DNA of 39,024 nucleotides, taken from contig VIQU02000035.1 of the NCBI GenBank assembly GCA_010206225.2, forward strand, positions 1 through 39,024, written 5' to 3'. Of the stretch, positions 35,113 through 37,915 are shown piece after piece. The position numbers were made by a program, and so were the translations under genes. The notes beneath the pieces are model-generated. The model did no database searches. It saw nothing but the letters and a program-made list of their open reading frames with translations, and was not told where the DNA came from. Source of the DNA: Lachnospiraceae bacterium MD308 (lineage in GTDB: Bacteria > Bacillota > Clostridia > Lachnospirales > Lachnospiraceae). Every line of letters begins with the position of its first letter. Position 1 is the first letter of the stretch.

Positions 35113-35460
35113 TTACAATTGGCTAATCGCCGCTATTGTCCTTTCATATTCTCTCGTTATTATATCCATCAGCTCTCTAGCGCCTTCCGTACTGCCTGCT
35201 CTCAGTATCTCCGCCAATTCACTGCTTGGCTTATACAATGCATCAAAAGCCAGATTCTGTGCAACTCCCTTCAGAGTGTGCGCTGCGCGAAATGCTTCTT
35301 CAATATTACCTGCACTCAGATTGTCCTGCAGATTTTTGAAGCTGTCATCATCTAAAAACTTTTTTGTGAATTTTGTGACAAGAGCTTCCTTTTTCATCAT
35401 TCTTTGATATACAGCCTCATAATCGCCGCCAATCGTCTCATAACATTCTTTTATCGTCAT
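35113..35460 (-). CDS. Hpt domain phosphotransfer protein
   Basis: The 115-residue helical protein has the Hpt phospho-acceptor motif AAHTLKGVAQNL near residues 59-70. It would shuttle phosphoryl groups between a kinase and a receiver domain. Its ATG lies 3 bp after the stop of the HD-GYP/GGDEF gene, with GGAG inside that gene's end, so the two are translated together. In related proteins I recall the Hpt being linked to the same REC/HD-GYP/GGDEF module. Its kinase partner is not identified; the orphan kinase at 4417 is one candidate. Confidence 0.88.
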   Translation of the reverse strand: MTIKECYETIGGDYEAVYQRMMKKEALVTKFTKKFLDDDSFKNLQDNLSAGNIEEAFRAAHTLKGVAQNLAFDALYKPSSELAEILRAGSTEGARELMDIITREYERTIAAISQL

Positions 35461-35463
35461 ATC

Positions 35464-37107
35464 TTACTCCTCTCCATCTATAGAAGATATCGCTGATAAT
35501 ATCTCTTTCATTGAATCATCATAAAAACAATACTGGGCGCGCCCTGCCTGCTTTGCCGTGTAAAGCGCCTTGTCTGCGCAGCAAAACAAACTCTCATAGT
35601 CACGTCCCACTCTCTTAGAACATGAAATTCCCATACTGATAGATATATCAAAGCCCTCATATTTACCGGAAAGCGCATGGAAAATACGGTCGATAATACT
35701 ATCTATACCTGACATATCCTCCATAAAAATCATGAATTCATCGCCGCCCACTCTTGCCGTTATGTCATAATCTCTGGTACTGCCGCGAAGCTTGTCTGCC
35801 ATATGCTGAAGCACCTTATCTCCAAACATATGACCGCATCTATCATTCGCATTTTTAAAATAATCAATATCAAAAATTGCCAAAATGAAATCTTTTCCTT
35901 CGCCCTCATGAAGCCGTTCCTTCACAAGCCGTTTGGATGTGGACTGATTGAGAAGCCCTGTCAGCCCGTCATAGGATGCCATTCTCTGCAAGTTTTTAAT
36001 CTTCTCATACTCCTCATGTATATCTACAATCTTCCCAATACATCCTGTCATATACGGCTGTTCTTCATATGCCCACATACTACGGCAGATCACGCGGCTC
36101 CAACGCAGTTCTTCGTTAATAAGAAGCTCTCCATCATACTGAATAACCGGAGACTCTGGAGTAGATGCCATCACCAGATTTCTAATCTCCTCCAGAATTT
36201 TTTCATCAGCAATACTCGTAATCTTTTCGTCCTCAAACGGATTCATAGTAATCTCTGCCGCATTAAGCAGCTTTGCACCTACATCTGACAAAGTAAGCAT
36301 AGAGGGTTCTTCCGTATATTCAAACTGAACCTCCGAAGACAAGGAAGCAAAAAACTGGTATTTTGTCCGTTCATGCTCTAAGAGCCTTAAAGTCCTCTCT
36401 GATGCCGAAAGGTCTTCATAGTGAAGCAAATCTTCCGTAATATTGCGTATATTCCTATCACTTTCCTGCTTAATAGAATTGACTGCCAATTGTTCCCTGA
36501 TACTGTCCGTACTTTCTAATAAACACTGTAAAAGCAATGGATTAAAAGCACCGCATTCTCCATTCGTAATCATCTCTATTGCTTTTTCATGAGAAAACGC
36601 AGGTTTATATACACGCACACTTGTCAAAGCATCGTAAACATCCGCCAACGCAACGATCTGGGCCGCAATCGGTATCTCCTCACCCGCCAACCCGTCAGGA
36701 TAGCCTCTGCCGTCATATCTCTCATGATGCCACCGGCAAATCTGATACGCTACTTTCACTAACGCTTCGTCTTTATAATAAGTAAGCTGATCAAGCATCT
36801 CCGCTCCTACCAGAGTATGCGTCTTCATCGTATCAAATTCTTCCTTTGTGAGCTTGCCTGGTTTATTAAGAATCTCTCCAGGAATAGAAATCTTCCCGAT
36901 GTCATGCAAAGCCGATGCCATAGTAATAATAGGAATATCTGAGCGCTTTAAATTATACTTATCCGTCTTGCGCATCACTGTCTGCAGAAGAATCTCCGTC
37001 ATCATATTAATATGTAGCACATGCATGCCGCTCTCTCCATTACGAAATTCGACAATATGGCTGAGGATGGATACCATCAGATTATTACTTCTTTCTTTCT
37101 TTCTCAT
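35464..37107 (-). CDS. HD-GYP / PAS-like / GGDEF c-di-GMP enzyme
   Basis: The 547-residue protein combines both activities of c-di-GMP turnover. An HD-GYP phosphodiesterase domain fills about 10-205, with HDIGK, HTLVGAEML, CRWHHERYDGRGYPDGL and ALADVYDALTS motifs. A PAS-like middle lies at about 255-375. An intact GGDEF domain follows at about 380-540 (DYFKNANDRCGHMFGD, then VGGDEFMIF). Both domains look catalytically intact. The ATG at 37107 has no ribosome site and overlaps the upstream receiver gene by 23 bp. The junction looks like a split of one protein by an extra AAAG unit. The Hpt gene follows directly. Confidence 0.9.
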   Translation of the reverse strand: MRKKERSNNLMVSILSHIVEFRNGESGMHVLHINMMTEILLQTVMRKTDKYNLKRSDIPIITMASALHDIGKISIPGEILNKPGKLTKEEFDTMKTHTLVGAEMLDQLTYYKDEALVKVAYQICRWHHERYDGRGYPDGLAGEEIPIAAQIVALADVYDALTSVRVYKPAFSHEKAIEMITNGECGAFNPLLLQCLLESTDSIREQLAVNSIKQESDRNIRNITEDLLHYEDLSASERTLRLLEHERTKYQFFASLSSEVQFEYTEEPSMLTLSDVGAKLLNAAEITMNPFEDEKITSIADEKILEEIRNLVMASTPESPVIQYDGELLINEELRWSRVICRSMWAYEEQPYMTGCIGKIVDIHEEYEKIKNLQRMASYDGLTGLLNQSTSKRLVKERLHEGEGKDFILAIFDIDYFKNANDRCGHMFGDKVLQHMADKLRGSTRDYDITARVGGDEFMIFMEDMSGIDSIIDRIFHALSGKYEGFDISISMGISCSKRVGRDYESLFCCADKALYTAKQAGRAQYCFYDDSMKEILSAISSIDGEE

Positions 37108-37537
37108 AAATCTGATCGGAAACCAACTCTATCAGCCGTTTCTGCTTTGCATAAAGCATAATCGTATTAATCACACGCCGATGTACAATCTGTCCATCAA
37201 AGGGCCTGCTAATGAAATCTGTCACTCCAAGCTCATATGCATGTTCTATATAAGAAGAAGTATTTTCCGCAGATATCATAATAACCGGAATATCCTGAAT
37301 CCAATTACGTCGGTTCATCACCGCCAAAACCTCAAACCCATCCATATTTGGCATTACAATATCAAGCAGCATCAGAGAAATATCCGTGCTGTCCATATTC
37401 AACCTTGCAACCGCCTCAGCTCCATCAACTGCTTCAACTATCTCATATTCATCTCCAAGCATATCAGCCAGAATCGAACGATTCATCTCTGAATCATCAA
37501 CTATCAATATCTTCTGCTTCTCGTTTCCTGTACTCAT
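37085..37537 (-). CDS. Response regulator receiver domain, apparently split from the HD-GYP protein
   Basis: The 150-residue protein is a single REC domain with acidic pocket (LIVDDSEMN), phospho-acceptor Asp (LMLLDIVMPNMDG, about residue 59) and the Ser/Thr position (MISAEN). The usual conserved Lys is replaced by Arg in ISRPFD. The tail ends SDQIYEKERKK. In relatives, as I recall them, the equivalent of YEKE runs on into SNNLMVSILSHIVEF, which here lies in the +1 frame. So it probably was, or can be, the N-terminal part of the HD-GYP/GGDEF protein. The ATG at 37537 has AAGGG upstream. Confidence 0.87.
   Translation of the reverse strand: MSTGNEKQKILIVDDSEMNRSILADMLGDEYEIVEAVDGAEAVARLNMDSTDISLMLLDIVMPNMDGFEVLAVMNRRNWIQDIPVIMISAENTSSYIEHAYELGVTDFISRPFDGQIVHRRVINTIMLYAKQKRLIELVSDQIYEKERKK
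37089..37104 (-). repeat. AAAG tetranucleotide tract at the REC/HD-GYP junction
   Basis: On the minus strand the tract reads G then AAAG three times then AAG. With three units the receiver frame meets TAA just after the tract. With two units the frame would run on into the HD-GYP domain. Confidence 0.85.
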
Positions 37538-37644
37538 TTAAAACCCTTCCTTATGCCATCACATTTCTGACATCACTTTTAGTATACCGATATCAGCGTT
37601 TCGTGTCAACATTCTAACAATCAAGAATTCCTTTTCATTATAAC

Positions 37645-37678
37645 AAAAAACTCTTTAAAGAACTTCTTCTCTAAAGAG
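37645..37678 (-). terminator. Terminator of the rRNA-tRNA transcript
   Basis: A 7-bp stem (37651-37657 with 37672-37678) is followed on the minus strand by six T residues, 13 bp after the last tRNA gene. Confidence 0.75.
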
Positions 37679-37690
37679 CTTTTGTGCTGA

Positions 37691-37763
37691 TGAGCGTGCG
37701 GGGATTCGAACCCCGGACAACTTGATTAAAAGTCAAGTGCTCTACCACCTGAGCTACACGCCC
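37691..37763 (-). tRNA. tRNA-Lys (anticodon TTT)
   Basis: The minus strand folds into a complete cloverleaf: acceptor GGGCGTG with CACGCTC (one G-U pair), TAGCTC D-arm, anticodon loop CTTTTAA with TTT, and a TTCGAAT T-loop. Discriminator A. No CCA is encoded. Confidence 0.95.
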
Positions 37764-37790
37764 AACTAAATATCTTATAAGAAAGACAAA

Positions 37791-37863
<73 letters not shown>

Positions 37864-37915
37864 AAATGTTCACTAATACATATTGCTGTGCACACTCTCA
37901 ACTGCAACATGTAAA

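Follow-up and report, generated by a model that had tools for sequence, protein, structure and literature searches.

The gene for a REC-HD-GYP-GGDEF response regulator in Lachnospiraceae bacterium MD308 is divided in two at a run of four AGAA units in the codons that link the receiver to the rest of the protein, and none of the relatives closest to it in our search has its gene split there. We think that the division is probably the result of a spontaneous and recent slippage duplication of 4 bp, revertible in principle, which uncouples the input of the regulator from its output, and that the repeat is not an evolved contingency locus. The junction also occurs a second time in the assembly of the same genome, with one unit fewer; this second copy, with its other repeat state, is new here. 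The window referred to below is the whole stretch of DNA analysed, 39,024 nucleotides of contig VIQU02000035.1 (our contig C86).

The divided gene and its repeat

35113..35460, minus strand: Hpt gene (Pfam), directly downstream of the HD-GYP-GGDEF ORF
35464..37107, minus strand: HD-GYP-GGDEF ORF, 547 aa, its first ATG inside the overlap with REC; Pfam HD_5/HD and GGDEF (PF13487, PF01966, PF00990)
37085..37537, minus strand: response regulator receiver (REC) ORF, 150 aa, ending within the repeat; Pfam Response_reg (PF00072), E 2.4e-24
37089..37104, minus strand: period-4 tract (AGAA)4, 16 bp; the nearest congener and the copy on contig C41 have 12 bp
37581..37609, minus strand: sigma-70-like promoter TTGACA-17-TATACT upstream of REC, 11/12 consensus match

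A first-pass annotation of this DNA described a 23-bp overlap of the two ORFs, an AAAG repeat within it, and an HD-GYP frame that is +1 relative to the receiver frame. All three are borne out by the ORF coordinates and by the position of AAAGAAAGAAAG, which lies at 37091-37102 on the minus strand, inside the overlap. The number of units depends on the rotation in which they are counted, three versus two for AAAG and four versus three for AGAA. The window contains no other exact match to AAAGAAAGAAAG, and 100 shuffles of the window gave a mean of 0.05 matches, with at least one match in 4 of the 100. The 16-bp tract is the sole period-4 tract of at least 12 bp in the window, and a period-4 tract longer than 14 bp appeared in none of 40 first-order simulated windows.

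The key motifs of the REC, HD-GYP and GGDEF domains are in place, divided over the two ORFs, as judged by Pfam and by an alignment with 20 relatives (alignment A1). D14, D15, D59, H210, D211 and G277-Y278-P279 are invariant in that alignment, and GDEF at 597-600 is found in 18 of the 20 aligned relatives, the remaining two being without that part of the protein. Comparison with L005, the locus of the nearest congener, revealed no further frameshift in the HD ORF. Receivers usually carry Lys at the place corresponding to L005 residue 111; all 20 aligned relatives have Arg there, before a nearly invariant Pro.

A similar Hpt gene is found at 69 of 80 relative loci (the best 80 of 130), each time no more than 400 bases from the end of the HD match. 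Because it is so often present there, Hpt and REC-HD-GYP would seem to form a conserved module, linked by phosphorelay.

The junction in relatives

Is the division peculiar to this genome? A scan of contigs with the HD-GYP-GGDEF ORF found 130 relatives, the best 80 of which were kept. REC and HD are in one frame at all 80 loci (the L068 contig stops within REC), and no split at the REC/HD junction was seen among these best 80 of 130. All five congeneric genomes, which by contig coordinates are the genomes of L005-L009, have a single open frame of 689-710 aa. A search of 299 genomes of the family gave matches at E <= 1e-25 in 195 of them; among the matches listed, 51 of the best 52 (E <= 3.1e-69) cross the junction in one frame, the exception being the window's own genome. 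Eight lower listed matches that begin at query residue 29-74, not at 1-3, were left out of the 52. Some genomes may be counted in more than one of these three samples (80 loci, five congeners, family search), so that the samples are not independent. The earlier statement that related proteins are single chains with the same junction is supported by these 80 loci. A conserved two-gene organisation is rejected on the same count.

Two relatives have an in-frame stop elsewhere, inside HD-GYP: L016, at match residue 231, and L162 (genome G153), with an internal TAG; G153 is among the 51 family matches that cross the junction in one frame. These may be sporadic broken alleles or sequencing errors.

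The number of repeat units at the junction is one in 75 of the 80 relatives, none in 2, two in 2, and three in L005 only. The L005 junction reads ...YEKERSNNLMVSI..., exactly one 4-bp unit fewer than the window, and L005 encodes one chain of 689 aa. The continuous frame that the first-pass annotation obtained by removing a single unit has its counterpart in L005, and the copy on C41, discussed below, is one unit shorter as well. Because the relatives share one frame and L005 has exactly one unit fewer, the comparison indicates that the window carries a derived +4 frameshift.

How recent is the change? Identity to L005 is 94.4% at the nucleotide level over 4,970 columns (~5 kb), and there are 0 substitutions in the 432 nt of REC, where the one-unit change is the sole difference. 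The region of identity extends beyond REC:

36671..37670, no strand: 1-kb stretch free of substitutions versus L005, with the 4-bp gap only

Each adjoining 100-base step (36571-36670, 37671-37770 and 37771-37870) has one mismatch to L005; beyond these, toward lower coordinates, 3-15 mismatches per step are the rule, but a few steps have 0-2, two of these near 35.4-35.6 kb. Identity to L006, L008 and L009 is 82-85% across REC and the 5' end of HD versus 77-80% for the later parts, so that this block appears to be conserved, not invariant. It is possible that the 1-kb stretch reflects a recent exchange or recombination between lineages, or an assembly chimera, with the extra unit arising afterwards. 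Across the HD ORF the window and L005 differ by 42 synonymous and 6 non-synonymous codons. When these changes are polarised with L006-L009, 3 non-synonymous and 5 synonymous changes fall on the window branch and 0 and 9 on the L005 branch; 3 and 28 could be assigned to neither (window versus L005 branch, Fisher P = 0.08). The contrast hints weakly that constraint has been relaxed on the window branch, in which case the lesion would be older than we propose.

A second copy of the junction and an IS element

The second copy of the junction lies at the tip of contig C41 of the window's own assembly. The first 445 bases of C41 match window positions 37021-37469 with 0 mismatches, minus one repeat unit, and so both repeat states are present in the data of one assembly. 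After the junction copy, C41 has a 223-bp fold-back, with 9 nt between the arms, and then the end of an IS.

37237, no strand: point in REC where the C41 copy passes into the IS end; the window itself is uninterrupted there

Seven further copies of this IS end start at the identical base, with different flanks, and this genome has nine left ends of the IS in all, on C12, C41, C62, C67, C72, C96, C119 and C137 (two). Among the five congeners one (G002) has a match and the other four have none, with G003 only 89% and G005 only 77% complete. A recent expansion of the IS in this genome is probable, and an insertion in REC may be a further lesion of the divided gene.

What can be made of C41? The contig, whose tip is our locus L085 (1-2923), contains two single Ns and, within the IS region, two exact duplications of 299 and 210-213 bp. 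Because of the fold-back, the single Ns and the duplicated ends we regard C41 as a stitched scaffold, a poor witness that gives weak evidence for linkage. One might suspect that the tip is contamination from the G003 lineage, as the G003 junction block is that of the window except for the unit. Provided that the tip is one molecule, this is unlikely, because G003, at its 89% completeness, shows no match to the IS.

Slippage as the likely cause

From these comparisons we infer that (AGAA)3 became (AGAA)4 by slippage, in the codons that join the receiver of a conserved REC-HD-GYP-GGDEF response regulator to its enzyme part. With the short tract, one protein would hold all of the REC, HD-GYP and GGDEF domains. 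With the long tract, the frameshift would end the receiver as a free protein of 150 aa, and translation of the HD-GYP-GGDEF part, should it occur, would have to restart at the ATG at 37107, 37077 or 37026. The phosphorelay input, probably passing through the neighbouring Hpt protein, would then be uncoupled from c-di-GMP output, and the likely effect is that regulated c-di-GMP turnover would be lost or uncoupled. The shorter-tract state appears to coexist in the same assembled data, and reversion would be possible, as at the lacI CTGG hotspot. The differences seen are those of a hotspot of the lacI type: three versus four AGAA units, with 0 substitutions in REC relative to L005 and 0 mismatches to the C41 copy. 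A strain mutation, which had been listed earlier as one alternative to a phase switch, fits the data better than the switch does. The presence of two states in one assembly is, however, also expected from a switch, and to that extent counts against the slippage explanation.

With the longer tract, the enzyme part would depend on a restart within the message.

37024..37026, minus strand: in-frame ATG at codon 28 of the HD ORF, downstream of the first, with GGAGAGAG before it as a plausible ribosome site

The view that the HD-GYP start has no ribosome site stands for the ATG at 37107, where a purine-rich site is absent just upstream, but fails for the ATG at 37026, with GGAGAGAG before it. The latter is a possible, putative restart for a shortened enzyme part. 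Pairing energies with the 16S tail, in kcal/mol, are -6.1 for the ATG at 37107 and -6.0 for that at 37077, versus -8.7 for REC and -12.9 for Hpt. The measure separates starts poorly, and since 8 of 27 mechanically chosen long ORFs of the window score weaker than -6.1, it is weak evidence that the HD ribosome site is missing. As for transcription, promoter-like sites in the region number 9 versus 8.1 expected in shuffles, a count that is not significant.

Alternative explanations

Might the gene be decaying by more than one route? In such a scenario, which is compatible with slippage as the cause of the split and which we entertain as a tentative, minority reading, one allele has the +4 frameshift and another an IS insertion in REC. 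The junction of REC at 37237 to a true IS end, shared by seven other copies with differing flanks, is what such an insertion would leave, and the abundance of the element here, with nine left ends versus a match in one of the five congeners and none in four, is in keeping with it, as are the HD-GYP stops of L016 and G153. Those stops, however, are possibly sequencing errors, and the C41 tip includes stitched joins as well as the 223-bp fold-back. Nor did the junction of REC with the other end of the IS turn up: among this genome's listed matches, only C86 and C41 closely match REC.

A more mundane explanation is that the true genome has the shorter tract and that C86 carries a false extra unit, through an error of assembly or consensus. 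The shorter version is indeed present in the same assembly with no other difference, and joining artefacts are visible on C41; an error in either copy, C86 or C41, is possible. The window contig, on the other hand, has no N, and a tract of 16 bp, made of tetranucleotides and not of a single base, is short relative to the usual length of a read. We consider a false unit on C86 unlikely.

The first-pass annotation had suggested a possible phase switch; in its evolved, slipped-strand form it would join or uncouple sensor input and c-di-GMP enzyme. Several features have the look of one: the one-frame and split states differ by exactly one unit, both occur within one assembly, and the split state has two ORFs with overlapping ends. 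The tract, however, is short, at 12-16 bp, and is not conserved, with one unit or none in 77 of the 80 relatives and three units in L005 only. Nor is there a split relative among the best 80 of 130 or among the 51 other best listed family matches. For these reasons we judge an evolved switch to be quite improbable. In its fullest form, the proposal would be that AGAA copy number reversibly switches the coding frame, that the OFF state is uncoupled, not null, with a free receiver and an unregulated HD-GYP-GGDEF enzyme, and that one gut Lachnospiraceae population contains both phases; this too we consider improbable.

Is the repeat part of a wider system? Genome-wide, the 12-mer has 8 matches at 7 places, versus 2 for a control with the pattern reversed, which would favour a switch, but the mean of the window shuffles, scaled to the genome, predicts about 5.6. 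The motif is not clearly above chance, though a modest excess is possible. The other six places show no broken gene; five sit in open frames of 126-530 aa, and the sixth, where a 51-aa ORF begins, is equal in net length to its counterpart in congener G003. A genome-wide AAAG contingency system is thus unlikely, even with the modest excess that 8 matches versus 2 may represent.

Programmed +1 ribosomal frameshifting, which would yield a fused product from the longer tract and was also raised in the first-pass annotation, agrees with the +1 position of the HD frame but is scarcely credible and is rejected, as 80 of 80 relatives are in one frame and need no shift, leaving neither a conserved shift site nor a conserved need for one.

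If there are indeed two states in one population, this would be a simple route by which a gut anaerobe could disconnect c-di-GMP output from sensor input, and the locus would offer a test of whether slippage outside the classical contingency loci feeds adaptation to the gut. Otherwise, it is a routine frameshift that would mislead annotation, giving two genes here versus one in relatives.

Comparison with known systems

By profile, the domains are those of known REC-HD-GYP-GGDEF response regulators, with solved relatives such as 4r8z and 4mcw for HD-GYP and PleD 1w25 for GGDEF. Among the 60 listed of 186 matched sequences, the best stretch of each covers a single region of the profile, and none is a solved chain with the full architecture. 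In the excerpts consulted from work that relates slipped-strand and SSR variation to c-di-GMP and diguanylate cyclases, including PMC8115180 and PMC11868660, a tetranucleotide switch of a REC-HD-GYP protein was not found.

The closest likeness is to the (CTGG)3 repeat of lacI, a measured +/-4 hotspot at which gains and losses of one unit are, in the excerpt of PMC3485313, the largest class of lacI-inactivating mutations. There, as here, three tandem 4-bp units lie in a coding sequence, and the gain or loss of one shifts the frame of the gene. The differences are that our event is deduced by comparison, that two ORFs result, and that the gene is a c-di-GMP regulator.

The tetranucleotide phase-variable genes of Haemophilus influenzae also have 4-bp units in the reading frame, so that frame sets expression, and an excerpt of PMC2651432 states that such SSRs change at about 1e-4 per generation. 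The present tract, in contrast, has three to four units and is not conserved in relatives. Is it simply too short to be a switch? Its four AGAA units (16 bp) fall below the cut-off of at least five tetranucleotide units given for the PhasomeIt survey of the Campylobacter phasome in the excerpt of PMC6321876, but not below the 3-4 units of the H. influenzae survey (PMC2651432). As the cut-offs differ, length alone is indecisive.

Clostridioides difficile offers a parallel of another kind. The c-di-GMP phosphodiesterase of pdcB/pdcC is phase-variable through inversion of promoter DNA, according to excerpts of PMC9286219 and the review PMC11868660, so that c-di-GMP turnover varies stochastically in this gut member of the Clostridia, as it would here if the tract switched. 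The mechanism there is promoter inversion, not slippage in a coding frame. Since c-di-GMP enzymes of C. difficile are phase-variable, the outcome of a switch in MD308 would have a precedent, reached by another mechanism.
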